Shown here: piece by piece, positions 1 to 64,000 of the stretch
Position numbering within the stretch: the stretch's first letter is position 1
Layout of the letters: each line of letters opens with the position of its first letter
DNA from: Actinomycetota bacterium
Lineage (GTDB): Bacteria > Actinomycetota > Thermoleophilia > Solirubrobacterales > 70-9
Assembly: GCA_018268415.1 (NCBI GenBank)
Contig: JAFDWO010000011.1
Coordinates: forward strand, 1-64,000
Length of the DNA stretch: 64,000 nt
Reading direction: 5' to 3'
Translations under genes and position numbers: made by a program
The notes under the pieces: generated by a model
Told to the model about the DNA's origin: nothing
The model's database searches: none
What the model saw: only the letters and a program-made list of their open reading frames with translations

Positions 1-124
1 GATCTCGATGCTGATCGAGATGGTCCCCCTGCTCGTCCTCTTCGAGTTGAGTATCTTGCTGGCACGTTGGTTCGGCCGTCCGCGCGAAGGGGCGGGAGCG
101 GCGGAGCCGAGCACGCAGGAGTGA
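1..124 (+). CDS. tatC: TatC, twin-arginine translocase subunit (C-terminal end only)
   Basis: Only the last 40 codons are present; the frame enters from the left edge and stops with TGA at 122-124. The visible part is a final transmembrane helix with the motif EMVPLLVLFELSILLARW followed by a short acidic cytoplasmic tail. Ending on that helix with LLVLFELSI is typical of TatC, the multi-spanning receptor of the Tat export pathway for folded proteins. The next gene starts 10 bases downstream on the same strand, so the two may be cotranscribed. The family call rests on this one helix and is therefore good but not certain. Confidence 0.8.
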   Translation, partial: ISMLIEMVPLLVLFELSILLARWFGRPREGAGAAEPSTQE

Positions 125-134
125 GAAGGGGCAG

Positions 135-941
135 ATGGCGCAGGGCAGCGACGAGCATCGAATGGTCTTTGACATCCGCGGCCGCAGGCGGCACGTGGTC
201 AAAGTCGTCTACGCGATCCTCGCGATCCTGATGGCGGCCAGCCTCTTCCTGGTCACCGGGGCCGTCAACCTCAACTCGATCTTCGGTACCGCCTCGAGCG
301 TCGAAAGCGCCGCCTCGAGCTTCATCAAGCAGGCCGAACACATCGAAACGAAGCTGGCGAAAACGCCGGAAGACGAAGCGCTGATGGCGAACCTGACGCG
401 CACCCGGATCAACGCCGCCAACTCGATGATCACCAACGGCAAGGGCGAATCCGCGGGCGGGGTCGAAGAAATCAAGCAGCAGCTCGCCCTGGCGAGCGAA
501 AGCTGGTCGAAATACGCCGCCACGGCGAGCGAACCGAGCGCTGGGCTGGCGATCCAGGCCGCTCCGGCCCTGTTCCAGCTCGCCGAACTCTCGAGCAACG
601 GCGAAGAAGCGTTGGAAAACGTGAAAGCGGCGGCGGAAGCCGAGCAGGTCGTCGCCGCGAAGCGCAACGACCTGAACAGCTGGAGCACGCTCTCCTTCTA
701 CGCGCTCTTCGCCCAGAACTACAAGCTGGCCGAAGAAGCCAAAGAAGAAGCGGTCAAACTGGCGAACACGAAGTTCGAACGCGAATCCTTCGAAAATAAA
801 TACGAAGAAGTCGAAAAAAACGCCAAAAAATTTGGCCAACAGCTGCAGGTCGAAAAAGCGTCGAAGAGCAAGTCGGCCGGCAAGGAATCGCTCGAAAACC
901 CGATCCAGGGTCTCGGCGGCACGTCTCTGGGCGGCGAATAG
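135..941 (+). CDS. Single-pass membrane protein with exported helical (TPR-like) domain
   Basis: 268 residues with ATG start preceded by GAAGGGG. A short basic cytoplasmic N-terminus (about residues 1-20) is followed by one membrane helix (about 21-44). The rest is a charged, almost purely helical extracytoplasmic domain. Residues about 180-215 (LSFYALFAQNYKLAEEAKEEA) read like a tetratricopeptide helix pair, suggesting a protein-protein scaffold. It directly follows tatC and may be in its transcript, but a link to Tat export is only positional. Codon use is remarkable: after the membrane helix 29 of 30 Glu codons are GAA, while the single Glu before it is GAG. I do not recognise a named family; the reaction or partner is unknown. 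Confidence 0.75.
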   Translation: MAQGSDEHRMVFDIRGRRRHVVKVVYAILAILMAASLFLVTGAVNLNSIFGTASSVESAASSFIKQAEHIETKLAKTPEDEALMANLTRTRINAANSMITNGKGESAGGVEEIKQQLALASESWSKYAATASEPSAGLAIQAAPALFQLAELSSNGEEALENVKAAAEAEQVVAAKRNDLNSWSTLSFYALFAQNYKLAEEAKEEAVKLANTKFERESFENKYEEVEKNAKKFGQQLQVEKASKSKSAGKESLENPIQGLGGTSLGGE

Positions 942-961
942 GCGCCTGACCGGGTGCTGAG

Positions 962-1034
962 TGGGCCGTGTTGGGCTCGAACCAACGACCTTGAGATTAA
1001 GAGTCTCCTGCTCTACCAACTGAGCTAACGGCCC
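962..1034 (-). tRNA. tRNA-Lys (CTT anticodon)
   Basis: Read on the minus strand, a 73-nt cloverleaf starts GGGCCGTTAGCTCAGTTGG. The 7-bp acceptor GGGCCGT pairs with ACGGCCC, there is a canonical D arm, an anticodon loop CTCTTAA giving CTT, and a T arm with GGTTCGAGCCC. Four of five anticodon-stem pairs form; the outermost is a G-A mismatch. The discriminator is A and CCA is not encoded. CTT reads AAG, the main Lys codon of this GC-rich genome. Confidence 0.95.
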
Positions 1035-1081
1035 CGGGCGGAGGATTATAGGAATCCCGGGCCGCCGGGGACCGCCGGGCC

Positions 1082-1852
1082 TCAGCGCTGGGCGCAGTAC
1101 TTTTCGAGCCCGACGCCTTCGATCACCAGGCCGTTGGCGAAGGTGAAGATGCCGTGGCTGCGCAGGATGTGGTCGGAGCAGCGGGCGGCGACGTAGCTGC
1201 GCTGCACGCCTCCGGCGGCGTACCGCCGGCCGATCTTGACGTTGATGTGGGTGATCGAGGCGAGGCCGCCTGCCAGTTCCGGCAGGTTGACGGTGGCCCG
1301 GTAGCGGAATTCACCGGGGCGCTTTTCGATCGGTACGAGGAAGGCGTAGGTCTGCGTCGCGGGCACGTCGATGCGAGCGTGGACGACGACGGTGGGGTGG
1401 CCTTCTTCGCGCGGGCCGTTGAAGAGGGTGAGCGCGGAGCTGGTCGGCACCGGGCCGCCGGGCAGCGAGACCAGCGCTTCGAGCCTGCCGGTGCCGACGA
1501 TCGCGCTCTTACAGATGGCGCGCGCTTCTTCGACGCTCGCCGCCGCGATCCGTTCAGGCGCGCAGGTCGGCAGCCCGGCGACGTCGAGGCGCCCGTCGCG
1601 GTCGAAGTCCATGACCACCTGCCGCAGGGCGGGAGGCGCGCCGCCGCCGGGCCTGGCGATATCGAGGTAGCCCTCGAACCGGACCGGGGCAAAGCTCTTC
1701 CTCGGCAGGTTGAGCGGCTGGAAGTCGGCGTTCAGCCGCAGTCGAATTTCCCGGGTTTCCACCATCGCGGCGCCGAGCGCGCCCTCGGCCAGGGCCGCGC
1801 AGACGAAGATCGTGAGGAAGAAGGGGAGGGCGCGCCTCAGTCGGTGTGGCAT
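1082..1852 (-). CDS. Secreted four-cysteine family protein, paralog A
   Basis: 256 residues. I chose ATG at 1852 because it gives a clean signal peptide (RRALPFFLTIFVCAALAEGALGA) and overlaps the upstream gene by 16 bases; a longer in-frame start at 1933 would lie deep inside that gene. The mature protein shares a pattern with four other proteins of the window: G-L-P-T-C near residue 115, an A-x3-C about 20 residues on, L-F-N then H-A, LPELAGG, a Cys after SYVAAR, and a C-terminal Cys. The four conserved cysteines could form two disulfides outside the cell. No domain name is recognised. It is the last gene of a three-paralog operon. Confidence 0.75.
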   Translation of the reverse strand: MPHRLRRALPFFLTIFVCAALAEGALGAAMVETREIRLRLNADFQPLNLPRKSFAPVRFEGYLDIARPGGGAPPALRQVVMDFDRDGRLDVAGLPTCAPERIAAASVEEARAICKSAIVGTGRLEALVSLPGGPVPTSSALTLFNGPREEGHPTVVVHARIDVPATQTYAFLVPIEKRPGEFRYRATVNLPELAGGLASITHINVKIGRRYAAGGVQRSYVAARCSDHILRSHGIFTFANGLVIEGVGLEKYCAQR

Positions 1853-2604
1853 GGCGAGGTCAGCAGCGACTGTAGGTGGCTGCCGTCCGCGAAGGTCAAT
1901 TTGCCGAAGACCTGGAGGCGGCCGCCGACGCATTCGGCTTCGGCGTACCCGACCTTCCGGCCGTGGCGGGTGTAGGTGCGGCCGAATTGGGTTTCGGCGA
2001 GGATCGCGGCGCCGGCGCCACCGGCGATCTCCGGTAGCTGGATTTCCGTGCGGTAGCCATAACGGCCGTGATCCACCTTTTCGACCGTGAACGGGACGAT
2101 CAGAGCCTGCGGCGCGGGCACGGTCTCGTAGGCGTGGGCGATCAGCGCCGGTCGGCCGCCCTGCGGCGGCGCGTTGAAGATCGAGATCGGCGAGCTGATC
2201 GTGAAGGGTGGTTTGCCCATCATCGCCACGCGCGCCCTGCCGATCCCGGTGCCGAGCAACGCCCCGGCGCAGCGCTTGCGGGCTTCGTCCGGCGTCGTCC
2301 CTTCGAGCTTCGCCACCGTGCAGGTCGGCACGCCCTTGAAGTTCAGCCTGCCGTGCTTGTCGAATTCGAAGGTCAGCGATCGCAGCGCCGGCGGCTGTTC
2401 GCCGTTCACCGAGTTGATCCGGACGATGCTGCCGAAGTGGGCCGGGAGGGTGCCGTGCCTGGGGAAGGCGCGCGGCTGGAATTCGGCGGTCGCGCTGACC
2501 TTGAGGTTGCCGATCTGGGTGGTGACCGCGCCGGCGACGGCGGCGAGGATCAGCACGGCCGCGACGACCGCGGCCGTGGGTAGGGCTGCCCGGCGTCGCC
2601 TCAA
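1837..2604 (-). CDS. Secreted four-cysteine family protein, paralog B
   Basis: 255 residues starting at TTG (2604); the start overlaps the stop of the upstream paralog by four bases (TTGA), which argues for translational coupling and for this start. An N-terminal hydrophobic stretch (about residues 8-27) is a signal peptide or anchor. The family signature is complete: GVPTC, a second Cys after EARKR, SIFNAPPQGGRP, AHAY, LPEIAGGAG, a Cys after YAEAE, and a terminal Cys. Most likely extracytoplasmic. Function unknown; the operon context next to an MMPL lipid-type transporter and the mce locus suggests an envelope or lipid role, which is inference only. Confidence 0.75.
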   Translation of the reverse strand: MRRRRAALPTAAVVAAVLILAAVAGAVTTQIGNLKVSATAEFQPRAFPRHGTLPAHFGSIVRINSVNGEQPPALRSLTFEFDKHGRLNFKGVPTCTVAKLEGTTPDEARKRCAGALLGTGIGRARVAMMGKPPFTISSPISIFNAPPQGGRPALIAHAYETVPAPQALIVPFTVEKVDHGRYGYRTEIQLPEIAGGAGAAILAETQFGRTYTRHGRKVGYAEAECVGGRLQVFGKLTFADGSHLQSLLTSPCHTD

Positions 2605-3371
2605 TCAGCCCCCTTGCAGTGTTTGATGATGATCCCGTTCAATTTCGTTCCTTCGTTGAATTCGGTTTCGACTTTCGCCTGCAGCTTGCCGCCCGGGCAG
2701 CTGGCGTTCGCGTAGCTCAGCTTCTGGCCCTTGAAGGTCCAGCGTTTGCCGATCGTCAGCCGCCCTTCGAGGGGGATCCCGTAGCCGCCCGCGATCCGCG
2801 GGATCCTCGCTTCGGTGCGGAAACCGAACGGTCCCGCGTGCACCTTCTGGATTTCCACCGGGACGATGTAGGTGGTCGGCGCGGGCACGCTCAGGTAGGC
2901 GTGGGCGAGCACGGTCGGGTTGCCGTTGTGGGGCGCGGCGTTGAAGATCGTGATCGGTGAGCCGGCCTTGAACGGCCGCTGTTCGGGGAAGGCGATCAGG
3001 GCGGTGCCGTGGCCCTCACCCACGATCGAGCCCGCGCAAACCTTGCGCGCCGTCGCCGAGGTGGTCGCCGCCAGCTTGTTCTTCGTGCAGTACGGGAGGC
3101 CTTTCGTGACCACCGCGCCGTGCTTGTCGTACCAGACGGTCAGCGTCTTCAGGATCGGCGCCAGTCCGCCGTCGGTGGCCGCGATCCGGCCTTCCCCGTG
3201 CAGCGTGATCGCGCCGGGCTCGTGCCTGGGCAGGGTGGTCGGCGTGAAACCTCCTTCGGCCACGACTTCGACCGGGCCGGCCCGCAACACGATCGTCGCC
3301 AGTGCAACCCCGCCCATGGCCAGCAACGCGACGGCGGTAAGAACCGCCGTCCTTAACACAGTCTTCCGCAT
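2601..3371 (-). CDS. Secreted four-cysteine family protein, paralog C (first gene of the operon)
   Basis: 256 residues from ATG at 3371, preceded by GGGAGGAGCGAACCT, a strong ribosome site; an upstream in-frame start at 3404 has no such site. The signal peptide is about residues 1-26 (TAVLTAVALLAMGGVALA). Family landmarks are KGLPYC, KVCAGSIVGEG, ITIFNAAPHNGNP, LAHAYLSVPAP, RIPRIAGGYG, a Cys in NASCPGG, and a final KHC. It is transcribed divergently from the MMPL transporter with only 43 bases between starts, so the two promoters must overlap. Function unknown. Confidence 0.78.
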   Translation of the reverse strand: MRKTVLRTAVLTAVALLAMGGVALATIVLRAGPVEVVAEGGFTPTTLPRHEPGAITLHGEGRIAATDGGLAPILKTLTVWYDKHGAVVTKGLPYCTKNKLAATTSATARKVCAGSIVGEGHGTALIAFPEQRPFKAGSPITIFNAAPHNGNPTVLAHAYLSVPAPTTYIVPVEIQKVHAGPFGFRTEARIPRIAGGYGIPLEGRLTIGKRWTFKGQKLSYANASCPGGKLQAKVETEFNEGTKLNGIIIKHCKGAD

Positions 3372-3414
3372 AGGTTCGCTCCTCCCGTAGCCCCCGCACG
3401 CCAAACTACCACGG

Positions 3415-6400
3415 GTGGGAAGCAGCAGGAGGAGGGGAAGCGAGCGCCCCGGCGGGCCGGACGCGGGCCCGGGCGCGCCGTGGTTGCTGCGTCATCCACG
3501 CGAGATCCTGGTGGTCGCGGCGATCGTTCTGGCCGCGCTGGCGGTCGTCGGCACCGGCGTCGATTCGCGGCTCGACCCGACCACCCTCAACGTGCCCGGC
3601 AGCTCCTCGGCGGAAGCCAACGAGATGCTGGAAGAACACTTCGGACCCTCGGCGCCGTTCGCGATCCTGCTGCGCGGCCCGGCCGCCGCGCTCGAAGAAC
3701 AGGGGCCGCGCCTGGTCCGGGCGCTGCGGGCGGAACCGAACGTCTCGACGCTCTCGCCCTGGGACCAGGGATCGGTCGAAGGGCTGCGCCCGACCCCCGA
3801 AAAGGCGCTGATCCTCGCCGACTTCCACGTCGACACGAAAACGGCGGTCGACGAGACCGTGCCGCGCCTCGACGAAATCCTCGAAGAAAGCGTGACGGCC
3901 CCGGTGCGGGCGACGCAGACCGGGTACGCGACCCTCTCGCGATCGTTGCAGCAGGAATCGATCGACGCCGCCGAGCGGGGCGAGCTGATCGCGCTACCGA
4001 TCCTCCTGGTCGTCCTCCTGCTCGTCTTCCGCTCGCCGATCGCGGCGGTGATCCCGCTCGGCTTCGGCGCGATCACCGTGCTCGCGTCACGGGGGATCCT
4101 CTACTTCGCCACGGAATGGTTCTCGATCGACGCGTTCGCGCTGACCGTCTGCACGATGATCGGCCTGGCGCTGGGGGTGGACTACGCCCTCTTGATGGTG
4201 TCGCGCTTCCGCGAGGAGCTCGAGGCCGGCGCCGAGCCGCTCGAGGCGGCGCGCCGAACCCGGCGCCACGCGGGGCGGACCGTCTCCTTCGCGGGCTCGA
4301 CCCTGCTGCTCTCGATGCTCGTCTCGCTGTTGATCCTGCCCGGGTCGCTGCTCGTGTCGTTGGCCGGGACGGTGGCGATGGTCGTCGTTCTCAGCGTCAC
4401 CGTGGCGACGCTGGTCGGTCCCGCGATCCTCACGCTGGTCGGAAGGAACGTCGACCGCTGGCGGATCGGATCGCGGGCGAGTGCCGAGCGCTCCGCGGTG
4501 ATGCGCTTCGTCAACGGGGCGCTGCGCCGCCCGCTCCTCGCGGCGCTGGTGATCGGCGCGGTCCTGCTCGCTCTGGCGGGCCCGGCGATCGGGTTGAAGC
4601 TCGGCCCGCCGAGCCCCGAACAGCTGGCCAAGGACGCGCCCGCGCGGGTGAACGCCGAACTGATCGACCACGCGATCGGATCCGGCTGGGACGCCCCGTT
4701 CCAGGTCGTCGCCACCAACCCGAACGGGCCGATCACCGACGCGGGCAGCATGGCGGCTCTCCAGCACTTCCAGCACAAGGTCGCCAGGTTCGAAGGGGTC
4801 AAAGTCGTGATCGGTCCGCAGGCGGCGACGAAGCGGGTGAAGCCGTTGCAGGAATTCGGCAACTCGGCGCTCGCCTCGCGCGGGAACCTCGGCCCGGTCA
4901 AGGAACTGGGGAAGCTCGGCAGGGAACTGAACGTCGCCGCGGGCGGGGTGGGGGAACTGCGCGGCGGGATCACCGAAGCGAGCAACGGCGCCGGTCTCCT
5001 GGCGCTCGGCTCCGACCACGCCGGCGAAGGCGCGCAGTTGATCGCGCGGGGGCTGGGGCGCGCGGCGGGAGGAAGCCAACGGGCGATCGACGCCCTGGAA
5101 CGCCTGGCGAAGGGCACCGAAAAGCTCGCGGAAGGGCTGCTGCAGGCGGAAATCGGAGCGCAGCAGGTCCGGGTCACCGGGATCAACGGAATCACCAGCT
5201 CACTCAACTACAACGGGCGACGGGCTCAGCGCGAACAGCTCCGGGGGCTCCGGGCCGAGCAGAACGAAACGGTTCCGCGACTGCTCGCACCGGCCCAGGC
5301 AAGCGTCGAAAAGCTGGCCGCGGCGGAAGCCGAGCTGAAGGAAGCGGCGCCCGACGACCCGACGGCCGCCGCGGCGCTGGAATCGGTTCAGGCCGCGCGG
5401 GCCGCGCTGACGGGCACCAACCCGGTCGACGGTGCCCCCTATCGGGAGGGCTATGCCGGTCTGACCGCCGAACTCGAAGGTCTCCGGGAACGGCTGGATC
5501 AGTACGCCGAACTCAACAGGAGAACGACGTCGTTCATACATTCCTCGGTTGAAGGATTGAAGAAAACCGGGCGGGCGACGGGGCGGCTGATCGAAGGCCT
5601 ACAGAGGCTTCGCCGCGGCAGCAACACGCTCGCCCGTGGCGCCGACAAGCTGGCCAAGGAAGCGGGCCGGCTCGGCGAGGGCATCGAACGGCTGGGCGCC
5701 GGGGCGGCCTCCCTGGTCAGCGGGCTCGACCAGCTCAGCGGTGGCGCCGAAGCGCTGGAAGCGAACCTCGCGGCCGGCGCGGTGGAAGTCGAACCGCTGG
5801 AAGCGGGGCTCGCGGAAGCGAGCGTGAAGGTGCTGGAAGGCAAGGCGAAGATCCGCCGGCAGGCGGGCAAAGTGCAGGAGCAGACGCCGGGCCTCTTCAA
5901 CTCGGGGTACTTCGTGCTCTCGGCGCTCGACGGGGCGCCGCCCGGCCCGCGCGAAAAGGCGGCAACGACCATCGACCTCAACAAGGGTGGCCAGGCGGCC
6001 TCGATGTTGGTGATCTCGAAGTACGAATTCAACTCGCCCGGATCGATCCGGCTGAACCAGGAACTGGCGGCCGCGGCGGCCGAACTGGGGAAGGACGCGA
6101 GCCTCCTGACCGGCGTCGCGGGCGGTGCGGCGCAGCTGAACGACTACAGCAAGATCACCCGCGACCGGATCCCCTGGATCATCGCGGTCATCACCTTCGT
6201 CACCTTCCTGGTGCTCGTGGTGGTGCTGCGGGCGCTGCCGCTGGCGGCGATCGCGGTCGGCCTCAACCTGCTCACGGTCGGGGTCGCCTTCGGCATCCTG
6301 ACGCTGCTCTTCCACGTCCCCGCGGACTGGCCGCTGGGCGGCCACGATTACGTCGACGCGGTCGGGGCCTGCATGATCTTCGCGGTCGTCTTCGGCCTCT

Positions 6401-6729
6401 CGATCGATTACGCCGTCTTCCTGCTGAGCCGCATGCGCGAGCGCTACGACGCCGGCGACGACAACGAGACCGCGGTCCGTTACGGCCTCGAGAAGACGGC
6501 GCGGGTGATCACCGGCGCCGCGGTGATCATGCTGGCGGTCTTCGTCGTCTTCGCCGGCGAGCCGATCGCGACGGTGAGCCAACTCGGCGTCGGCCTCACC
6601 GTCGCGGTCGTCCTTGACGCCACCGTCGTGCGGATCGTCCTCCTCCCGGCCCTGATGCTCCTGCTCGGCGACCGCGTCTGGTGGCTCCCGCGTCCGCTCG
6701 AGCGGGTGCTGCCACGGCTGAACGTGTAG
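3415..6729 (+). CDS. MMPL/RND-family membrane transporter
   Basis: 1104 residues, GTG start without an obvious ribosome site; no better in-frame start is visible before the first helix. The architecture is two MMPL halves: one helix (about 29-50), a large extracytoplasmic loop, five helices with GVDYALLMVSRFREEL (about 253), then helix 7, a very long second loop (about 400-915), and five more helices with GLSIDYAVFLLSRMRER (about 1000). The Asp-Tyr pairs in helices 4 and 10 are the usual proton-relay positions. The second loop carries long heptad-like stretches (ARGADKLAKEAGRLGEGIE), as in coiled-coil extensions of actinobacterial MmpL proteins that export lipids. The substrate is not determinable. 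Every cytoplasmic Glu uses GAG, while the big loops use mainly GAA. Confidence 0.9.
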   Translation: MGSSRRRGSERPGGPDAGPGAPWLLRHPREILVVAAIVLAALAVVGTGVDSRLDPTTLNVPGSSSAEANEMLEEHFGPSAPFAILLRGPAAALEEQGPRLVRALRAEPNVSTLSPWDQGSVEGLRPTPEKALILADFHVDTKTAVDETVPRLDEILEESVTAPVRATQTGYATLSRSLQQESIDAAERGELIALPILLVVLLLVFRSPIAAVIPLGFGAITVLASRGILYFATEWFSIDAFALTVCTMIGLALGVDYALLMVSRFREELEAGAEPLEAARRTRRHAGRTVSFAGSTLLLSMLVSLLILPGSLLVSLAGTVAMVVVLSVTVATLVGPAILTLVGRNVDRWRIGSRASAERSAVMRFVNGALRRPLLAALVIGAVLLALAGPAIGLKLGPPSPEQLAKDAPARVNAELIDHAIGSGWDAPFQVVATNPNGPITDAGSMAALQHFQHKVARFEGVKVVIGPQAATKRVKPLQEFGNSALASRGNLGPVKELGKLGRELNVAAGGVGELRGGITEASNGAGLLALGSDHAGEGAQLIARGLGRAAGGSQRAIDALERLAKGTEKLAEGLLQAEIGAQQVRVTGINGITSSLNYNGRRAQREQLRGLRAEQNETVPRLLAPAQASVEKLAAAEAELKEAAPDDPTAAAALESVQAARAALTGTNPVDGAPYREGYAGLTAELEGLRERLDQYAELNRRTTSFIHSSVEGLKKTGRATGRLIEGLQRLRRGSNTLARGADKLAKEAGRLGEGIERLGAGAASLVSGLDQLSGGAEALEANLAAGAVEVEPLEAGLAEASVKVLEGKAKIRRQAGKVQEQTPGLFNSGYFVLSALDGAPPGPREKAATTIDLNKGGQAASMLVISKYEFNSPGSIRLNQELAAAAAELGKDASLLTGVAGGAAQLNDYSKITRDRIPWIIAVITFVTFLVLVVVLRALPLAAIAVGLNLLTVGVAFGILTLLFHVPADWPLGGHDYVDAVGACMIFAVVFGLSIDYAVFLLSRMRERYDAGDDNETAVRYGLEKTARVITGAAVIMLAVFVVFAGEPIATVSQLGVGLTVAVVLDATVVRIVLLPALMLLLGDRVWWLPRPLERVLPRLNV

Positions 6730-6795
6730 AGCGTCCCCGATCGCGACGGTGGGCCGCTCGGGGCGGCCTCACCGCGCGATCGCGCCCGGCGGGGG

Positions 6796-7584
6796 TTACT
6801 TCTTCTTCGGTTCCGCCTTCGGCGTGCAGGCCTGCGTCGTGTCGGCGTTGATCGTGGTGCCGTCCTGGTAAGTGAAGGCGCCGCGGTACTTCAGCTTCTT
6901 CGAGGCCGGGCATTTGGCGTTGACGAAGCTCACCTTCTTGCCCTTGTAGGTCCAGGATTTCTGGATCTTCACCTTGAAGTCGGTGATCACGCCGACGCCG
7001 CCGGCGATCGGGGGGATCGTGACGTCGAGGCGCGGGCCGTAGCCTTCCTTGCCGTAGCTGGAGACGGTGCCGACCAGGACCAGCGTGGTCTGGATCGGCG
7101 CCTGGCCGTAGGCGTGCAGCAGCACCACCGGCTTGCCGCCCTGTGGCACCCCGTTGAAGGCGGTGACCTTCGTCGGCTCGGTGTAGAGGACGCTCAGCGG
7201 CAGCAGGGTGATCGCCGAGCCGCTGCCGATCTTGGCCTTGCCGCAGGCCAGTTCCGCAGCTTCCGTGGTCGTGTTCTGCAACTGCGCCGCCGAGCAGGTG
7301 GGCAGGCCCTTGGTCATCAGCGAGAGGTTCTGGTCGAAGTCGATGACGTCATGGACGGCCGGGCTCGGCACCCCGCTGCCGCTCTTGCCCGTTTTCACCT
7401 CGACGCTCAGCGCCACGGGCGAGGCGGTCTTCTTGTAGAGGGCCTTGGGCGAAACCGAGGCTTCGATCGACTGGGTGTTGCCGTCGGGCCCGGTCACCGT
7501 TTCCCCGGCAAGGGCGGCCGAAGCCGGGATCGCGAACGCCGCGAGAGCGGCAAGGCTCGCGATCAGAGTGAAACGTTTGTGCAT
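6796..7584 (-). CDS. Secreted four-cysteine family protein, paralog D
   Basis: 262 residues, ATG preceded by AGGAGCACTCA. A signal peptide (about 1-26, AAFAIPASAALA) is followed by the same pattern as paralogs A-C: KGLPTC, a second Cys in ELACGKA, TAFNGVPQGGKP, LLHAYGQAP, IPPIAGGVGVI, a Cys in NAKCPAS, and a Cys near the C-terminus before a Lys-rich tail. It sits between the MMPL transporter (convergent) and the mce operon (divergent, 189 bases apart), so it shares a promoter region with mce. Function unknown. Confidence 0.78.
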   Translation of the reverse strand: MHKRFTLIASLAALAAFAIPASAALAGETVTGPDGNTQSIEASVSPKALYKKTASPVALSVEVKTGKSGSGVPSPAVHDVIDFDQNLSLMTKGLPTCSAAQLQNTTTEAAELACGKAKIGSGSAITLLPLSVLYTEPTKVTAFNGVPQGGKPVVLLHAYGQAPIQTTLVLVGTVSSYGKEGYGPRLDVTIPPIAGGVGVITDFKVKIQKSWTYKGKKVSFVNAKCPASKKLKYRGAFTYQDGTTINADTTQACTPKAEPKKK

Positions 7585-7773
7585 TGAGTGCTCCTGGATC
7601 GGAAATTGTGCGGATCGCCTCCCATTCCCCTAACCGGTCCGCGGCGCCAGAGTAGCGCGTTGAATTCCCATTAAGTCCCCGCTCCACCGGCTTTTGGCGG
7701 GTATCGCCTCGGATACGATTCCCGCGCCCATCCGCAGGGTCGAGGGGGCCAAGGGAGGGGCAGGCGACGACCT

Positions 7774-9168
7774 GTGGCTGCGAAACCCCAAGGCGAGGAG
7801 AAACGCTCGGCTCCGAGCCGAGGAACCACTCCTGCCCGCATGGCCGCGATCGGGGCCCTTGCGGTGGCCGTGATCGTCCTCGCGATCGTGCTCTTCACCG
7901 GGGGCGGTGGGCACAACTACACGTTCATGTTCCAGAACGCGGGCCAGTTGGTCAACGACAACCAGGTGACGATCGGCGGCTCGCCGGTCGGGACCGTCTC
8001 CGGGATCGACCTGAGCCCGAACAACCTTGCCGAAGTCCACGTCGAAGTGGAACAGGAGCTGCACGAAGGCACCACCGCGGTGATCCGCGCCACCTCGCTC
8101 TCCGGCGTCGCCAACCACTATCTGTCGATCAGCCCGGGACCGAACAGCAGCCCGGCGCTCGACGAAGGCACCCCGCTCGGGCTCGCCTCGACCACGACGC
8201 CGGTCGACATCGACCAGCTCTTCAACAGCTTCCCGGCGAAAGTGCGCGAAGGGCTGCAGAACTTCATCAAGGGCAATGGCCAGATTTATGCCGGCCGCGG
8301 CAAGGACGCGAACGAAAGCTACAAGTACTTCGGCACGGCGCTGAACCGGGCGACGGCGTTGGCCGCCGAACTGAACGCCGACGAACAGCTGCTCTCCAAG
8401 TTCCTGGTGAGCTCCAGCAACCTCACCAGCGCCGTCGCCGGTCGCGGCGCCCAGCTCTCGAGCGCGATCTCCAACGCCAACCAGGCCTTCCAGGCGATCA
8501 GCAGCCAGAACGTGGCGCTGGAACGGACCTTGGAACAGCTGCCGCCGGTGATGCGCCAGGCCAACACGACCTTCGTCAACCTGCGCGCCGCGCTCGACGA
8601 CGTCGAACCGTTGGTCAACACCGCCAAGCCGGCGACCAAGAACCTCGCTCCCTTCCTGGCCGAACTGCGTCCGGTCCTGAACAAGTTCATCCCCTTCACC
8701 CGCAACCTCGGCCTGGCGCTGAGCCGCCCCGGCCCGCATAACGACACCGCCTCGCTGCTGAAGGAAATCCCGGTCGTCCAGCAGCGCGCCTCGCGCACCT
8801 TCCCCCACGCCGAAGACGCGATCGCCGCCTTCCAGCCGCAGCTCACCTTCGCCCGCTCCTACACGCCTGACCTGTTCAACGCGCTGGGCAATCTCGGGGT
8901 CGCCGCTGGTGGTTATGACGGGAGCGGTCACTATGTGCGGGCTTCGATCTCAGCCGCGAACCTCTTCAAATACGACGGCGGCAAGCTGACGCCGATCACC
9001 CGCGCCGAACAGTTCAACGGCTTCACCTCGACCTCGATCCCGCGCCGTTGTCCCGGGGGCGCCACGCAGCCCGCCGCCGACGCGTCGAACCCCTACGTCA
9101 ACCCGCCCCACGGCGGCAGCTCCGTGAGCCCGTCCGAATGCAACGTGAATCAAGGGGCCGGCGGATGA
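7774..9168 (+). CDS. Mce-family protein, 1st of six
   Basis: 464 residues, GTG start. A short basic cytoplasmic N-terminus is followed by one helix (about 23-43), the MCE/MlaD domain (about 47-120, with VTIGGSPVGTVSGI), and a long helical region to the C-terminus. Mce proteins form hexameric tubes or needles that shuttle lipids or sterols between the membrane and the outside. It heads an operon in which every junction overlaps by 1 or 4 bases. No YrbE/MlaE permease precedes it, unlike classical mce operons. In the part after the helix I count 17 GAA to 1 GAG; before it both Glu are GAG. Confidence 0.92.
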   Translation: MAAKPQGEEKRSAPSRGTTPARMAAIGALAVAVIVLAIVLFTGGGGHNYTFMFQNAGQLVNDNQVTIGGSPVGTVSGIDLSPNNLAEVHVEVEQELHEGTTAVIRATSLSGVANHYLSISPGPNSSPALDEGTPLGLASTTTPVDIDQLFNSFPAKVREGLQNFIKGNGQIYAGRGKDANESYKYFGTALNRATALAAELNADEQLLSKFLVSSSNLTSAVAGRGAQLSSAISNANQAFQAISSQNVALERTLEQLPPVMRQANTTFVNLRAALDDVEPLVNTAKPATKNLAPFLAELRPVLNKFIPFTRNLGLALSRPGPHNDTASLLKEIPVVQQRASRTFPHAEDAIAAFQPQLTFARSYTPDLFNALGNLGVAAGGYDGSGHYVRASISAANLFKYDGGKLTPITRAEQFNGFTSTSIPRRCPGGATQPAADASNPYVNPPHGGSSVSPSECNVNQGAGG

Positions 9169-10715
9169 AACGCGCGTTCGCAGGGCTCCTCGTCGTCGCG
9201 GCCGTGGTGGCCGTGATCGTGCTGATCTCCGGCAGCTCGAGCGAAGGCTACGTCGTGCGAGCGGTCTTCAGCAACGGCTCGTTCATGGTCGCCGGCGAGC
9301 AGGTGCGGGTGGCGGGCGCCAACGTCGGCACGATCAAGTCCGTCAGCGTCTCGCTGCCCGGTGAACCGACCGCCGAAAGGGGCGGCAAGCTCGTCGACGT
9401 CCCCGGCAAGGCGATCATCGAGCTCGAAATCTCGGACCCGAGCTTCCAGGACTTCCGCCAGGACGCCGGCTGCGAAATCCGGCCGCAGTCGCTGATCGGC
9501 GAGAAGTACGTCGACTGCCACCCCACCGAGCCGCGCGCGCCGGGGCAGCAGCCCCCGCCGCCGCTGACGCGGATCCCGGACGGCGAACCGGGCGCGGGGC
9601 AGTACCTGCTGCCGCTCGGGCGCAACCAGACCACGGTCGACCCGGACCTGATCAACAACATCAACTCGTTGCCCTACGCGCAGCGCTTCCGGTTGATCTT
9701 CAATGAACTCGGTGCCGGCTTGGCGGGCCGCGGCCAGGACCTCGAGGCGGCGATCAAGCACGCGAACCCGACCCTACGCTCGGTCGACAAGCTGTTCGGC
9801 CAGCTGACCGAACAGAAGGACCAGCTTGCCCAGTTGGCCGCCGAATCGCAGGAAATCCTCGAACCGCTGACCCGCGAAAAAGAACACGTGGTCGGCTTCC
9901 TCGCCCACTCTGGCGAAGCGGCGGAAGCGAGCTCCGAACATGGCGCCGAACTCGAAGCGGCGCTGCAGAAGTTCCCCACCTTCCTCGTGGAGTTCCGCGA
10001 AACGATGAGGAATCTCAAGGAGTTCTCGGACGCCGGCACGCCGTTGCTCGAAGACCTCGGCGTCGCCGCCCCGGCGCTGACCAACGCGACGCGGACGCTC
10101 ACGCCGTTCTCGGAAGCGACGACGGTGGCGCTGAAGAGCCTCGCCACCGCCGGTGAAGCGTCGGGCCCGGTGTTCGCCCAGGCCACGCCGGTCGTGCGGA
10201 AGGCGGGCAAGCTGGCGAAGACCGGCGTCGTCCCGACCAAGGAACTGGCGGGATTGTTCAGGAGCCTCGAGGGGACCGGCGGCTGGAGGAGCCTCACCGA
10301 ACTGATCTACAACTCGGCCGGCGCATTCAACGGTTTCGACAAGTATGGGCACTACGGGCGGGCTGCGGTGACCCTGACGACCTGCCTGAAATACGAAGCC
10401 AACAAGGGCGGCTACAGCGGTTGTGTCGCCCGCTTCAACGGCTACCAGCACGCAGAACCGGCGGAATCGCTCACCTCGGTCGCCCAGCTGCGACAGCTTC
10501 TTGAACAGACTCGGGCGGCACGGAGCGGCGGTACGAGCGCCGGGACCGAAGGTCGCGCAGGCCTGACGACCGGCCTCGGCTCGGCGGAATCGACCGAACC
10601 GTCGGCGCCCGCCGAACGCCTCAGGGGTGAACGCGAAGAAGAAGCCGGGCTCGGCGAAGCCAGGCAAACCGAAGGGGGCACCGAACCCCTTCTCAACTAC
10701 CTCTTGGGCCAATGA
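9165..10715 (+). CDS. Mce-family protein, 2nd of six
   Basis: 516 residues from the ATG at 9165, which overlaps the previous stop as ATGA; an in-frame ATG further upstream (9048) lies inside the first mce gene and would displace the membrane helix. It has one helix at residues 4-22, then an MCE domain (about 30-120) with QVRVAGANVGTIKSV and RPQSLIGEKYVDC, and a helical stretch ending in a low-complexity tail rich in Ser, Gly and Glu. Expected to be one of the six different subunits of a hetero-hexameric lipid channel outside the membrane. Confidence 0.92.
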   Translation: MKRAFAGLLVVAAVVAVIVLISGSSSEGYVVRAVFSNGSFMVAGEQVRVAGANVGTIKSVSVSLPGEPTAERGGKLVDVPGKAIIELEISDPSFQDFRQDAGCEIRPQSLIGEKYVDCHPTEPRAPGQQPPPPLTRIPDGEPGAGQYLLPLGRNQTTVDPDLINNINSLPYAQRFRLIFNELGAGLAGRGQDLEAAIKHANPTLRSVDKLFGQLTEQKDQLAQLAAESQEILEPLTREKEHVVGFLAHSGEAAEASSEHGAELEAALQKFPTFLVEFRETMRNLKEFSDAGTPLLEDLGVAAPALTNATRTLTPFSEATTVALKSLATAGEASGPVFAQATPVVRKAGKLAKTGVVPTKELAGLFRSLEGTGGWRSLTELIYNSAGAFNGFDKYGHYGRAAVTLTTCLKYEANKGGYSGCVARFNGYQHAEPAESLTSVAQLRQLLEQTRAARSGGTSAGTEGRAGLTTGLGSAESTEPSAPAERLRGEREEEAGLGEARQTEGGTEPLLNYLLGQ

Positions 10716-47878: not shown

Positions 47879-48532
47879 ATGAACGACGACTGGCGCCTGC
47901 AGATCAATCTTGCCGATGAGGGGGTCGCGGGGAAGGTCGCCGATGCGATGCGCTCCGCCGAGCTGGAGCACGAGCTCGCGAACGATTTCGGCCGACGGGT
48001 GATCGTCAGCCACGAAGGCGAGACGATTTTCCTCTACGCCGGCGACCGCGATCAGGTCGATCGTGCCGAGGTTGCGGTGCGGAAGTACCTCGACGAGAAG
48101 GGCTGGGAGGCGAAGCTGGAGCTCCGCCACTGGCACTCGGCCGCCGAGGATTGGGAGGACCCCGACGCCGCCGAGCCGACCACGGCGGCCGCGGCTGCGG
48201 CCGAGCACGAGCGCCTGATGCAGACCGAGGACGAAGAGGCCGCCGAACGCGGCGGGCTTGCCGAGTTCGAGGTGCGGGTCGAGTTTCCCTCCCACCGCGA
48301 GGCGAAGGAGTTCGCCGCGAAGCTGGAGGGCGAGGGCCTCGAGCCGGTGCGCCGCTGGCGCTACATGGTCGTCGGCGCCGCCGACGAGGACGCCGCCAAC
48401 GAGCTGGCCGACCGGATCCGCGCCGAGGCCCCCGCGGACAGCAAGGTCACCGCCGAGGGCTCCCTTGCGGCCGCCTGGCGCGAGCGCCCCCCGAACCCCT
48501 TCTTCTTTCTCGGCGGTCTGGCTGACGGGTAG
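47879..48532 (+). CDS. Cytoplasmic protein of unknown function with two similar alpha/beta halves
   Basis: 217 residues, ATG start, no signal or helix. Residues about 1-85 (WRLQINLADEGVAGKVADAM through VAVRKYLDEKGWEAKLEL) and about 128-205 (FEVRVEFPSHREAKEFAAKL through NELADRIRAEAPADSKVTAEG) share the same strand-helix-strand-strand-helix-strand order, suggesting an internal duplication of a ferredoxin-like unit. The linker is Ala/Glu-rich. The function is not recognisable. Glu is mostly GAG, as expected for a cytoplasmic protein here. Confidence 0.7.
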   Translation: MNDDWRLQINLADEGVAGKVADAMRSAELEHELANDFGRRVIVSHEGETIFLYAGDRDQVDRAEVAVRKYLDEKGWEAKLELRHWHSAAEDWEDPDAAEPTTAAAAAAEHERLMQTEDEEAAERGGLAEFEVRVEFPSHREAKEFAAKLEGEGLEPVRRWRYMVVGAADEDAANELADRIRAEAPADSKVTAEGSLAAAWRERPPNPFFFLGGLADG

Positions 48533-53438: not shown

Positions 53439-53457
53439 GCGATCGATCGGCCCCGGC

Positions 53458-54427: not shown

Positions 54428-55300
54428 TCAGCTATCGAGCTCGCGGGCGCGGGCGACCATGGCCACGGTGGCGGCGCGCAGGCCGTCGGGCTCCCCCACC
54501 GGCTCCTCGAAGCCGACTCGCGCCGTGGTGCGGCCCCGGGGGGTGGAGAGGTCGAGGTCGAGGCCGTAGCGGTCGGCGCCGACGCAGCTCGCCTTCTCGG
54601 CGTCGGTGTGGCCGCCGAGGTTGCGGGCGATGAGCAGGAGCGAGTCGGCGTGGTCGGCGTTCAGGTGGCTGATCGCGCCCGGGGCGTGGGGGGCGACCGG
54701 ATCGGCCTCGGCGGCGGCAAAGGACTCCGGCCCGACCGAGTCCATCCGACCGAAGCCGCCGACCCAGCGGACCCGCTCGACCCGCAGGACCCACCAGCTG
54801 AAGTCGCTGAAGCTGCCGAAGATCGCCGCCGAGGCGATCGCTTCCTCGTAGACGTGCCGCGCTTCCTCGAGCCGCTCGCCGGCCGGCTCCTCGGCCACCC
54901 CGGCCACCGTGACGCGACCGGTGTCGGCGGGGTCGCGGGCGGGCGGGACCGACTCGGAGACGGCGAGGCTCGCCCGCTGGTCCCGCTTCAGGTTGCGGCC
55001 GTGGAGGGCGAGGGTGGAGAGGGAGAAGACCGGGCTGCCGTCGGCGAGGACGCCGTAGTTGACGATCGACGCCCACGGGTCGCCGTCGGCGGTGAGGGTC
55101 GCCAGCGCCCCGGTGACGTTTGCGGCGAGGATCGTCCGCGCCTCCTCCGCGGCGCTCCGCGAGCGGGCGCTCGGGACCTCGACCAGCGGCGGCAGCGCCG
55201 CCATCAGCTCGGCCGCGGCCGATCCCACGCCCACCGGGACCCCGTGGCCGCCCATGTTGATGGTCTGCATGTCGTTCGGAGTCGCGTCGGAAGTGCTCAT
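54428..55300 (-). CDS. HugZ-like flavin/haem protein (pyridoxamine oxidase fold plus DUF2470)
   Basis: 290 residues. The N-terminal split-barrel (about 50-185) has AARTILAANVTGALATLTADG and ASIVNYGVLADGSPVFSLST. The C-terminal DUF2470 domain (about 205-285) has ISHLNADHADSLLLIARNLG, whose His residues are associated with haem contacts in HugZ. HugZ proteins degrade haem to release iron. Two DtxR/IdeR-like palindromes lie just upstream of the start, and the divergent gene encodes an HtaA haem protein. The role is therefore probably cytoplasmic haem iron release, iron-repressed. Confidence 0.85.
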   Translation of the reverse strand: MSTSDATPNDMQTINMGGHGVPVGVGSAAAELMAALPPLVEVPSARSRSAAEEARTILAANVTGALATLTADGDPWASIVNYGVLADGSPVFSLSTLALHGRNLKRDQRASLAVSESVPPARDPADTGRVTVAGVAEEPAGERLEEARHVYEEAIASAAIFGSFSDFSWWVLRVERVRWVGGFGRMDSVGPESFAAAEADPVAPHAPGAISHLNADHADSLLLIARNLGGHTDAEKASCVGADRYGLDLDLSTPRGRTTARVGFEEPVGEPDGLRAATVAMVARARELDS

Positions 55301-55353: not shown

Positions 55354-55436
55354 ACCTGCTAGGGTCCGCCACGCTCGTCGTCGGAGACGTCCTTCGGCGA
55401 GCACAAATTCGACGCAAAGCAAGCGGAAGGAGAAGC

Positions 55437-56774: not shown

Positions 56775-56786
56775 GCAGATCATGCC

Positions 56787-60889: not shown

Positions 60890-60892
60890 GGC

Positions 60893-61777: not shown

Positions 61778-61810
61778 GTACTGCTCCTCTCGGGTCGGTC
61801 GCTGCTGAAG

Positions 61811-61873
61811 TTAGGGGCGCCTAATAGAATCTAGCGGGACTCTGTTAGGGTCGCCTTATTAGGTAACCCTAAC
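61811..61873. promoter_or_regulatory. Three DtxR/IdeR-type iron boxes (divergent promoter)
   Basis: TTAGGGGCGCCTAAT (61811-61825), TTAGGGTCGCCTTAT (61845-61859) and TTAGGTAACCCTAA (61859-61872) fit the TTAGG-x4-5-CCTAA iron-box pattern; the second has one mismatch (CCTTA). They fill the 109-base gap between the ABC operon (minus) and the second HtaA gene (plus). Both directions are probably iron-repressed. Confidence 0.82.
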
Positions 61874-61886
61874 AAGGAGGCCGCAG

Positions 61887-63137
61887 TTGAAGTCGATCCC
61901 GTTCACGAGCCGCTCGGTAGGGCGTCTCGGCGCTCTCGTAGCCGTGGCGGTGGCAGCCATCGCGGCCACCGTGGCGCCGGCCACGGCGGCCACGATTCCC
62001 GCCGGCGGCGTGGCGGTCGAGCACGCGAGCCTCGACTGGACCGGGAGCACGGTGATGCAGTCGCCGCTCTTCGGCATGTACCACTACTTCTCCGCCGGGG
62101 TCTCCGACGGCACGGAAGCCACCTACAAGGGAGCCGACGGCAACGCCGAGGTGCTGCTCGAAGCCGAAGGCCCGCACGCGATCGCCACCTGGGGAACGCA
62201 CACGAACTACAGCGCCGAAGCGGGCCACCACCAGGTGGTGCGGCTGCGCGAGGGGACGGGGCGGATCGAGGCCGACGGCGCGGCGAGGATCAGCTGGACC
62301 GCCTCCTTCAGCGTCAACTTCTACGGCGGCACCGCCCCCTTCTCGGTCGAGAACCCGACGCTGCTCGTCAACGCCGACGGGACCGGGGAGCTGACCGGGA
62401 CGCTCCTGGGCTGCAAAGCGAACAAAGCCGAACCGGCCGCCGGCTGCGTCCCGTTCGCCCCCACCGCGGGCGCCCAGATCGCGACCTTCACCGGCGTCAA
62501 GGTCGACCCCGAGGCGCCGCTGACCATCGCCCCGAGCTACGCCGGGGTCGCGGTTGAAACCCCGGGCGCGAAAAACCCGCAGAAACGCGAAGTCGAAGGC
62601 TGGGGCGCCTGGCCGCAGTCGATGGTCACCTTCCAGGACCAGACCGGCCTCTCCTCCTACTTCTACTCGTCCGGCAGCGGCGAAGACCCGAAGAAGCCGC
62701 CGCTGCCGTTCGTCGTCGACTTCAAGGTCCCGAAGCCGATCCCGCCGGAGAGCAAGCCCGCGGGCCCCGGCACGCCTGGCCCGTCGGCGACCCCGGCCGC
62801 GGCGAAGCTCGTGACCTTGAAGGGCGTCAAGAAGCTCGGCGCCGGCGGCGTCGCGACGGTGGCGAGGTTGGTCTGCCCGAGCGGCGGCGCGACCTGCACG
62901 ACGACCGTGCCGAGTCGCCTCGGCGTCAAGATCGCCGGCGCGCGCTACGTGCTCGGCGTGCGCGCCCCGAAGAAGATCGGCGCCGGCAAGTCGGCGACCG
63001 TGCGGGTGCGGGTGCCGAAGGCGGCGCGGCACGCCCTCGGCGCGAAGCGGCTCGCGGTCAAGGTGAAGGTCGCCCTCCACGCGAACGGCCAGACCACCAA
63101 GAAGGTAGTGAAGGCGACGATCGCGGTGGGCCGTTAG
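61887..63137 (+). CDS. Secreted HtaA-domain haem-binding protein (2nd of three)
   Basis: 416 residues, TTG start seven bases after AAGGAGG. Signal peptide to about residue 35 (TVAPATAA). The HtaA region (about 36-275) has ARISWTASFSVNFYGGTAPF, ENPTLLVNADGTGELTGTLL, GWGAWPQSMVTFQDQTGLSS, closely parallel to the protein at 55437. A short Pro-rich linker and the same roughly 100-residue Ig-like C-terminal module follow (ARLVCPSGGATCTTTVPS, GVKIAGARYVLGV). Both HtaA proteins share a PKKPPLPF sequence after the domain. It should bind haem outside the membrane and pass it to the ABC importer. Confidence 0.88.
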   Translation: MKSIPFTSRSVGRLGALVAVAVAAIAATVAPATAATIPAGGVAVEHASLDWTGSTVMQSPLFGMYHYFSAGVSDGTEATYKGADGNAEVLLEAEGPHAIATWGTHTNYSAEAGHHQVVRLREGTGRIEADGAARISWTASFSVNFYGGTAPFSVENPTLLVNADGTGELTGTLLGCKANKAEPAAGCVPFAPTAGAQIATFTGVKVDPEAPLTIAPSYAGVAVETPGAKNPQKREVEGWGAWPQSMVTFQDQTGLSSYFYSSGSGEDPKKPPLPFVVDFKVPKPIPPESKPAGPGTPGPSATPAAAKLVTLKGVKKLGAGGVATVARLVCPSGGATCTTTVPSRLGVKIAGARYVLGVRAPKKIGAGKSATVRVRVPKAARHALGAKRLAVKVKVALHANGQTTKKVVKATIAVGR

Positions 63138-64000
63138 GTGACGGGGCGGATCGCGACGGTGCTGGGGGCGCTGGCGTTGGCCGGCGCCCTCGGCAGCGGC
63201 TCGGCCGTCGCCAAGGTGCGGACGGTTCCCGCCGGCGGCCTCGTGAGGGTCGGCACCGTGCGCTGCGCGGCGAGCGAGGCCTGCGCGGTGCAGCCGCGGC
63301 CGAAGCTGATCGGGGCGAAGGTCGCCGGCAAGAAGGTGAAGGCGCGGGTCCTGGTGCCGGCCTTCCTCGGCGCCGGGGGTAAGGCAACGGTCAGGCTGCG
63401 GTTCGGCGCCGGCGCGCTCGGTCGCCTCGCCGGACACTCGGCGGTCTTCCGCGTGCGCGTCCTCGTGCGCGGGTCGGGCAGCCAGTCCACCCAGGTCTTC
63501 AGGGCGACGCTCAAGCGGCCCGCGGCGACGCCGGCGAAGCCCGGGACCGGTGGTGGCGGCAACAGCGGCGGCAGCGGCCCGACCCGTGAAGCTCCCCGCT
63601 CCGAACCGGTGACCAGCGAATCGCCGCCCTTCGCGCGGCCGCTCACGGCGAAGACGGTGGAGAGCGTCAGCGTCAAGTGGTACCCGCGCGCCTCCTGGCT
63701 GGGCTACGTCGCCAGCGGCGAGGGCACCGTCGCGACGGGCGGGGCGTCCGCGGTCAACTCGACCGTCTCACCGTGCCCGGCGCAGCCCGGCAGCGGCGAA
63801 GGCGGCGGGGTGAGCTCCGGGGTCAGCCTTCCCTACGAGATCGACTTCACCGCCGCCGAAAGCTGGTTCGACCCGGCCAGCGGGGTGGCCGCGATCAACG
63901 GCACCGGCAGCGTGAGCTTCCTCTACAAAGCTCACACGATCAACCTGACCGGCTCCGACCCGGAAATCCAGATCAACGGTTCCTCCTCCCAGGCCGTCTT
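63138..64000 (+). CDS. Secreted HtaA-like protein (3rd), runs off the right edge
   Basis: At least 287 codons. The GTG start directly follows the TAG of the previous gene. Signal peptide about 1-26. The order is reversed relative to the other two: the Ig-like module comes first (about 30-140, VGTVRCAASEACAVQPRPKL and VKARVLVPAFLGAGGKATV). A Gly/Ser/Pro linker follows and then the start of an HtaA-like domain (VKWYPRASWLGYVASGEGTV, LPYEIDFTAAESWFDPASG, GSVSFLYKAHTINLTGSDPE). The end is outside the window. Same operon as the second HtaA gene. Confidence 0.8.
   Translation, partial: MTGRIATVLGALALAGALGSGSAVAKVRTVPAGGLVRVGTVRCAASEACAVQPRPKLIGAKVAGKKVKARVLVPAFLGAGGKATVRLRFGAGALGRLAGHSAVFRVRVLVRGSGSQSTQVFRATLKRPAATPAKPGTGGGGNSGGSGPTREAPRSEPVTSESPPFARPLTAKTVESVSVKWYPRASWLGYVASGEGTVATGGASAVNSTVSPCPAQPGSGEGGGVSSGVSLPYEIDFTAAESWFDPASGVAAINGTGSVSFLYKAHTINLTGSDPEIQINGSSSQAV

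Follow-up and report, generated by a model that had tools for sequence, protein, structure and literature searches.

Pyrrolysine is encoded with the help of a cassette that comprises the genes pylT, pylS and pylBCD. As outlined in a published account, this system combines a dedicated tRNA and a dedicated synthetase with enzymes for biosynthesis of a lysine-derived residue, and it occurs in few lineages (PMC3941956). Another departure from a fixed code is the CUG codon of Candida albicans, which parts of a second paper describe as an ambiguous sense codon whose tRNA is charged by two synthetases; the same paper states that Codetta cannot predict a non-standard residue, which it would report as nonspecific or under the name of a residue with similar usage, and that it does not detect ambiguity directly (PMC8629427). 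In addition, LysU, EpmA/PoxA and LysX are cited, in sections of a third source, as duplicates of lysyl-tRNA synthetase (LysRS) type that have acquired new roles (PMC9437257). Here we describe an unusual use of the two glutamate codons, GAA and GAG, in a stretch of 64,000 nucleotides (hereafter the window) from the draft genome of an Actinomycetota bacterium (contig JAFDWO010000011.1 of assembly GCA_018268415.1), together with a cassette located elsewhere in this genome that contains an aberrant tRNA with a UUC anticodon, a LysRS paralog and a paralog of the methyltransferase PrmC.

Like the pyrrolysine genes, this cassette offers a dedicated tRNA, a dedicated synthetase and a candidate residue-making enzyme in few lineages. 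It differs in that the codon involved is not the amber stop codon but a common sense codon, GAA, in that exported proteins at large are shaped, and in that the synthetase is a LysRS2 paralog and the tRNA resembles tRNA-Arg. Residues at the ambiguous CUG codons of Candida albicans are enriched in surface proteins, but that system belongs to a fungus and concerns two standard residues, serine and leucine, and we know of no dedicated synthetase paralog, methyltransferase or sharp inside/outside rule associated with it. The reassignments of arginine codons found with Codetta reportedly lead to standard residues. As is proposed here for GAA, these cases involve a bacterial sense codon with an altered reading that goes along with tRNA changes, but the best standard meaning of GAA is still glutamate. 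Should GAA carry another residue, screens that score only the best-fitting standard residue would overlook it. The main text of the Codetta report contains no mention of Thermoleophil, Solirubrobacter or Actinobacteri, and one of GAA (PMC8629427). By its NCBIfam matches, the cassette synthetase is a duplicated LysRS-type enzyme, as are LysU, EpmA/PoxA and LysX. To our knowledge, none of these three has its own tRNA for another codon, and EpmA has no anticodon-binding domain, whereas the cassette paralog retains the OB-fold.

Nowhere in the open-access papers searched did we find a codon choice so sharply tied to protein location for a single amino acid, a location rule for glutamate codons, or a cassette of this kind. 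Were GAA to carry a different residue, it would add to the naturally encoded amino acids, with two former synonyms split between meanings and deployed across exported proteins. If GAA is plain glutamate, the pair is still a case of unusually strong synonymous selection, connected with the replacement of a tRNA. Because the tRNA, synthetase and methyltransferase are linked, a direct test is feasible.

The skew is real and strong at the scale of the genome. The sample of the window's own genome (G000, 94% complete) contained 1231 genes in 81 stretches that total 1.44 Mb, or ~30% of the genome. The gene caller was home-made and its codon model treated GAA and GAG as a single codon, which leaves it unable to produce the effect itself, and residues were placed by simple signal and membrane-segment (hydrophobicity) rules that make errors in both classes, so misassigned genes and topologies should dilute the contrast. 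GAA accounted for 2675 of the 17804 glutamate codons in cytoplasmic proteins (0.150) and for 2085 of 3150 (0.662) in a strictly exported class of 147 signal-bearing proteins. The first-pass annotation, made from the window alone, had proposed that GAG is used inside and GAA outside, that the effect is specific to glutamate and that it does not reflect a general change in base composition, and each of these points holds over the 1.44-Mb sample. Without glutamate, the GC content of third codon positions (GC3) was 0.915 in cytoplasmic and 0.920 in exported proteins, and no other codon family moved comparably; the second largest shift, in the arginine codon AGG, was from 0.043 to 0.074 in exported parts. 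In a first clean sample of 728 kb from the same genome, the codons for Lys, Gln, Asp, Asn, His, Tyr, Phe and Cys were almost flat across location, and the glutamate skew was seen with every neighbouring base and every neighbouring residue. A suspected accompanying rise in the lysine codon AAA was small in the own genome (0.174 to 0.216) and moderate in G002, another species of the genus (0.222 to 0.321). On these counts, base composition, neighbour context and Shine-Dalgarno avoidance were rejected as causes.

The position of the switch within proteins was also informative. In single-span exported proteins, GAA made up 11 of 59 glutamate codons upstream of the N-terminal membrane segment, 44 of 70 in the first 10 residues beyond that segment, and a share of 0.61-0.71 in each later bin. 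For proteins with parts on both sides of the membrane, the Mantel-Haenszel odds ratio was 2.2 for glutamate (179 proteins), a value diluted by wrong topologies, as soluble enzymes are visible among the listed two-sided proteins. Seven further two-fold families gave ratios of 0.42-1.0. A flagellar locus adds a case in which export does not depend on a Sec signal, since FliE, FlgB and FlgC leave the cell via the flagellar export apparatus. Among the proteins of this locus, whose identities we presume from their sequences, GAA:GAG counts were 4:2 (FliE-like), 6:2 (FlgC-like) and 6:2 (FlgB-like), together 16/22, and 30:7 in FliF, while the GAG-rich members were FliG-like (10:45), FliH-like (3:27) and FliI-like (0:34). 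Because the rod-like FliE, FlgB and FlgC proteins are GAA-rich, location, rather than the Sec route, seems to be decisive, although the flagellar numbers are small.

In the window itself, 50 genes were called, of which 10 were classed as cytoplasmic and 24 as exported, with the remainder left uncounted. GAA accounted for 25/216 glutamate codons in cytoplasmic proteins and 397/520 in exported parts; the corresponding controls were 6/52 and 84/402 for AAA, 5/63 and 20/278 for CAA, and 35/209 and 41/280 for GAT. The hand counts of the first-pass annotation for 27079-28122, 45195-46694, 7840-9168, the exported part of 135-941, and 46754-47830 proved exact on recount. The window genes with informative counts are as follows, with exported proteins given before cytoplasmic contrasts and exceptions last.

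135..941, + strand: membrane-anchored exported protein; outside part 29 GAA, 1 GAG
1082..1852, - strand: exported protein; outside 13 GAA, 1 GAG
2601..3371, - strand: exported protein; 10 GAA, 2 GAG
3511..6729, + strand: multi-span protein, RND/MMPL-like by appearance; outside 39 GAA, 6 GAG, inside 12 GAA, 14 GAG, a within-protein switch
6796..7584, - strand: exported protein; 6 GAA, 2 GAG
7840..9168, + strand: first Mce protein, of ambiguous topology class; 17 GAA, 1 GAG
9165..10715, + strand: Mce-like protein; 39 GAA, 8 GAG
10712..12136, + strand: Mce-like protein, of ambiguous topology class; 17 GAA, 9 GAG
12133..13653, + strand: Mce protein (MlaD domain); 16 GAA, 9 GAG
13653..15092, + strand: Mce-like protein; outside 31 GAA, 7 GAG
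15089..16681, + strand: Mce protein (MlaD domain), used in the 30-genome alignment; 40 GAA, 10 GAG
16829..17617, + strand: secreted protein; 15 GAA, 1 GAG
24985..25404, - strand: lipoprotein-like; 14 GAA, 0 GAG
29148..30809, - strand: lipoprotein-like; 20 GAA, 12 GAG
31324..32751, + strand: membrane protein with a large exported part; outside 18 GAA, 6 GAG, inside 0 GAA, 11 GAG
32765..37102, + strand: multi-span protein with a large exported part; outside 54 GAA, 22 GAG
38369..40582, - strand: lipoprotein-like; 61 GAA, 10 GAG
46754..47830, + strand: secreted protein; 17 GAA, 0 GAG
22116..23174, - strand: cytoplasmic contrast; 1 GAA, 16 GAG
27079..28122, + strand: MoxR ATPase, cytoplasmic contrast; 1 GAA, 24 GAG
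42938..43495, - strand: regulator-like, cytoplasmic contrast; 3 GAA, 20 GAG
45195..46694, + strand: glycerol kinase, cytoplasmic contrast; 2 GAA, 34 GAG
47879..48532, + strand: cytoplasmic contrast; 3 GAA, 29 GAG
51066..53438, + strand: membrane protein with a mainly cytoplasmic domain; inside 6 GAA, 37 GAG, outside 1 GAA, 1 GAG
54428..55300, - strand: cytoplasmic contrast; 2 GAA, 18 GAG
25452..27035, + strand: counter-example, predicted exported; 6 GAA, 11 GAG
23227..23976, - strand: counter-example, predicted exported; 1 GAA, 4 GAG
19200..19874, - strand: weaker contrast, predicted cytoplasmic; 6 GAA, 11 GAG

Comparison with related genomes shows that the skew is genus-wide, being present in 10/10 members examined. 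In a survey of Mce genes (29 loci of ~3 kb, one without an exported gene), GAA made up 287/397 glutamate codons in nine other genus members, with each at 0.60-0.85. Outside the genus but within the family, the count was 30/440 in eight genomes, and outside the family but within the order it was 59/394 in eleven. The shares in G002 were 671/3539 for cytoplasmic and 554/1059 for exported proteins. There was no shift in G012, a cassette-free member of a related genus, for which 800 kb were read with the identical caller (cytoplasmic 316/9155, exported 56/1776), and no skew in a panel from other phyla, for which a MoxR scan found 69 loci, 43 of them usable (Mantel-Haenszel odds ratio 0.95). Exported proteins of the own genome also differ in composition from those of G012: Asp is lower (0.042, against 0.075 in G012), as is Arg (0.054 against 0.077), and Lys is higher (0.040 against 0.023).

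The choice between GAA and GAG also depends on the individual site. Between the own genome and G012, 139 orthologue pairs were compared, of which 13 were in the exported class. At exported positions with glutamate in both genomes, GAA was used at 6/61 sites of high local identity, 18/65 of middle and 26/51 of low identity, and at 120/221 sites where G012 has another residue; the cytoplasmic equivalents were 36/528, 69/640, 28/290 and 170/1095. An alignment of all 30 Mce sequences from 30 genomes, which includes the protein encoded at 15089..16681, showed a similar pattern, as GAA occurred at 11/57 positions in columns with outgroup glutamate of at least 75% (ten of them from a single column) and at 260/313 in the remaining columns. 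Among ten species with a mean identity of 70%, codon identity at shared glutamates was 0.91 against an expected 0.61. Swaps between GAA and GAG are thus rare among species of the genus, and sites discriminate the two codons, although most other two-fold codons, with the exception of those for Lys, are close to saturation. Observed and expected values for other residues were 0.67/0.68 (Asp), 0.73/0.75 (Asn), 0.91/0.90 (Phe) and 0.70/0.69 (His), and they were slightly raised for Gln (0.87/0.83) and Tyr (0.78/0.72). In 28 orthologues shared by the own genome and G002, odds ratios were 22 for GAA/GAG and 21 for AAA/AAG, 0.8-7.6 for other A/G pairs and 0.7-7.8 for C/T pairs, with too few counts in the ACA and GTA cells. 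Known motifs were less helpful. The catalytic glutamate of ABC Walker B motifs used GAA at 0/23 sites, a non-discriminating result because GAT for the Walker B aspartate (1/23) and AAA for the Walker A lysine (2/68) are as rare; an AAA+ pattern had GAA at 3/23 sites and an FRxE pattern at 8/28, with many unrelated proteins among the matches, and HExxH and lytic-enzyme motifs of exported proteins occurred too few times for comparison.

The first-pass annotation had suggested inspection of the tRNA-Glu gene set, which revealed a single, aberrant UUC tRNA in the own genome. The complete tRNA list was examined in G000, and other genomes were searched by pattern. When all 49 tRNA hits of G000 (one a degenerate copy) were read, the sole UUC anticodon belonged to a 96-nt gene at C40:51643-51738, outside the window, and none of the 49 was a normal tRNA-Glu(UUC). 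ARAGORN gave this gene the type '???'; it labels most copies in other genomes as unknown, Pro or Thr, and calls a single copy Glu(ttc) when it starts at an inner position. The acceptor and D stems of the gene are identical to those of the own tRNA-Arg(ACG), its nearest own tRNA, and the D-loop carries an inserted hairpin. Thus, it has the anticodon of a canonical tRNA-Glu(UUC) but not the body of a tRNA-Glu. In eight aligned homologues, the seven-base anticodon loop CTTTCAA is invariant and all 28 pairing positions of the cloverleaf and hairpin are paired; the hairpin pairs in 8/8, with two-sided changes at 2/7 pairs. Among 41 related genomes (12 genus members, G019 and 28 others), the full-length tRNA was present in 11/12 genus members, the exception being G005 (78% complete), and in G019, and in 0/28 others. 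A normal-looking UUC candidate was found by eye in pattern searches of 22/28 cassette-free relatives. With the patterns tried, no normal-looking candidate was found in G012, G024, G028, G033, G036 and G039, and no other convincing UUC tRNA in the cassette-bearing G002, G006, G009 and G019, an absence that is weak evidence, as normal UUC tRNAs of several relatives had also escaped the patterns. The 3' half of the cassette tRNA recurs in partial copies, at C40:57624-57654 in the own genome and in G008:C176, G003:C208, G011:C170, G010:C48 and G019:C113, which resemble leftovers of integrating elements with a tRNA gene as their attachment site.

Two enzyme genes accompany this tRNA in the same 12/41 genomes, so a dedicated tRNA and a dedicated synthetase are inherited together. 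An extra PF00152 enzyme, the LysRS paralog, lies on the tRNA's contig (it is partial in G011), with its domain 0.2-2.4 kb from the tRNA in 11 genomes and 36 kb away in the own genome. A second, better scoring LysRS-type match, the normal LysRS, was found in 11/12 of these genomes and is not listed for G001. The paralogs of the own genome and G019 are 70% identical and score, over their full length, above the curated TIGR00499/NF001756 cut-offs (G019 474 and own 488 against 427.6; 543 and 553 against 468 bits). Relative to the LysU residues that we take to line the substrate pocket, the paralogs of the own genome, G019 and G262 keep E240, R262 and E278 and carry the changes Y280F, N424G, F426G and E428D; they share the pocket motif GGGTD(I/V)NDP and a Trp in (I/L)WPLVK. 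Some cassette-free relatives (e.g. G021, G031, G037 and G040) have additional PF00152 matches as well, and that of G037, at 53% identity, is a relative of the LysRS paralog. In the C17 region of G037 (L288), a genome without the cassette tRNA, a changed-pocket LysRS paralog (SGSSDLNDP) adjoins a tRNA-Lys(UUU) gene, perhaps as a related but different pair. The third member, the PrmC paralog (62-100% identity), is upstream on the tRNA contig in 11 genomes and on another contig in G011, and no other relative of the 41 had a match above 53% identity to it. Like PrmC/HemK, it retains the PrmC N-terminal domain and a methyltransferase domain. Unlike them, it has NLPY (own, G019, G262) in place of NPPY, which we take to be the normal PrmC motif, scores 188.4 and 175.5 bits against the TIGR03534 cut-off of 199.1, and exists beside a separate PrmC homologue listed in 11/12 cassette genomes.

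The distribution of the tRNA includes a second, distant lineage. Class-wide, it is present in 28/399 genomes and 3/128 genera, g1 (9), g9 (2) and g31 (17), of which g31 belongs to another family than g1 and g9. In G258, the sole g31 member sampled (37 kb), GAA made up 27/47 exported and 107/621 cytoplasmic glutamate codons; two secreted-looking proteins classed as cytoplasmic (13/21 and 19/23) contribute 32 of the 107, and moving both by eye, post hoc, gives 59/91 and 75/577. In genomes of this family that are without the tRNA (G028, G031, G037, G040), the Mce GAA share was 0 to 0.09. A second LysRS-type enzyme, a candidate counterpart of the cassette paralog, was found in 5/6 g31 genomes tested. 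The skew tracks lineages that carry the special UUC tRNA.

We consider it somewhat more probable than not, at roughly 55%, and more probable than any of the alternatives, that GAA and GAG are no longer equivalent and that the cassette tRNA reads GAA as a glutamate-like but non-identical residue favoured outside the cytoplasm. In this model, the dedicated cassette on contig C40 would have replaced the normal tRNA-Glu(UUC), tRNA-Glu(CUC) would read GAG as ordinary glutamate, and the cassette tRNA, presumably charged in vivo by the LysRS paralog with a substrate that the methyltransferase may supply, would read GAA as an amino acid outside the standard set, acidic or Glu/Gln-like, or as a mixture of this with glutamate. 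Selection favouring the GAA residue outside the cytoplasm would cause exported proteins to fill up with GAA, and strongly conserved glutamate positions would be kept free of it. A more specific proposal, tentative and at somewhat less than even odds, is that the genetic code has been naturally expanded at a sense codon, such that GAA wholly or partly inserts an extra amino acid that is made by the PrmC-type enzyme, charged by the LysRS paralog and used chiefly outside. N5-methylglutamine, which has the length of lysine, methylated lysine and methylated glutamate are guesses for such a residue.

Several observations weigh against this interpretation. In the G012 alignments, the best single meaning of GAA is glutamate, which leads Asp by 140 log units in cytoplasmic segments and Lys by 25 in exported ones, and the Mce columns also favour glutamate. 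GAA is found at 23/292 locally near-identical conserved cytoplasmic glutamate positions, some of them in proteins that we take to be IF3-, RNase Z- and PNPase-like, and its spacing to Lys/Arg and the overall charge balance look acidic. The chemistry suggested by the enzymes, namely methylation and an amine or amide substrate of lysine length, sits uneasily with an acidic residue, and the paralog keeps E278, an acidic residue of the lysine pocket that suits an amine better than an acid. Lysine AAA/AAG choice is also conserved by site (0.81 against 0.61 expected, ten species), although it hardly depends on location in the own genome, and AAA is rare at Walker A, so ordinary codon accuracy may account for part of the site effect. 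The full cassette of G019 comes with only a weak skew (exported 14/92, cytoplasmic 75/1176, p 0.004), G221 (g31) has the tRNA without a LysRS-type paralog, and the LysRS-like enzyme of G258 is off the tRNA's contig, has a different pocket and is 49% identical to the own paralog, against 49-50% for the family's normal LysRS. Reassignment of GAA to another standard residue was ruled out by the alignment likelihoods and Mce columns, and a basic residue such as lysine is contradicted by charge balance, spacing and the exchange partners of GAA within the genus, which are Asp, Gln and Ala. The alignments, the conserved GAA sites and the acidic charge and spacing therefore exclude that GAA has switched completely to a very unlike residue.

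These points bear on the leading alternative, to which we assign clearly lower odds, that GAA is plain glutamate delivered by a special tRNA with slower, less accurate or regulated charging or decoding, such that conserved sites shun it for accuracy and exported proteins use it for folding speed or co-regulation with the cassette. This would explain why alignments give glutamate as the best meaning, why GAA is retained at conserved cytoplasmic sites and why lysine shows a comparable, accuracy-like avoidance of AAA. However, relaxed accuracy alone should not produce 74-93% GAA at the less conserved Mce glutamate columns when GC3 without glutamate is 0.92, the own genome shows no parallel shift of Gln and Lys towards A-ending codons, flagellar substrates without a Sec signal share the skew, and a codon regulon has no need of site-specific conservation. 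It is improbable that the cassette tRNA acts outside translation, for example in tRNA-dependent envelope modification of the LysX/MprF type, with a normal tRNA-Glu(UUC) missed and the skew caused otherwise. Non-translational LysRS paralogs are known (PMC9437257), the genomes are drafts and G221 carries the tRNA alone, but the invariant UUC in a seven-base loop, a cloverleaf that is paired throughout, the lack of another UUC tRNA in G000 and, by pattern, in four more cassette genomes, and the co-occurrence of skew and tRNA in two distant lineages all argue against this.

The causes offered by the first-pass annotation, namely export-linked decoding speed, avoidance of GAGG near the translocon and mRNA localisation, are not supported, and we regard them as very improbable even though the switch coincides with the first membrane segment. 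Export speed does not fit GAA-rich flagellar proteins that bypass Sec, GAGG avoidance does not fit AGG going up rather than down in exported parts, mRNA localisation leaves the GAG preference of conserved exported glutamates unexplained, and the skew is absent from G012 and from the 43 loci of other phyla. The least probable explanation, which we consider close to negligible, is local base composition, horizontal acquisition or a gene-calling artefact; the gene and topology rules were simple and the genome is a draft, but GC3 without glutamate is nearly equal in both classes, eight other two-fold families are near flat, and in G012 the identical caller detects no shift.

Two further tRNA-like sequences were noted. 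In the own genome, C149:10640-10712 is a degenerate tRNA-Lys-like copy whose sequence is close to that of the tRNA-Lys(UUU) also found on C149. In the window, ARAGORN calls a tRNA-Val at 22140-22228, inside a called coding sequence, which is probably a false call because an Rfam search did not return it.

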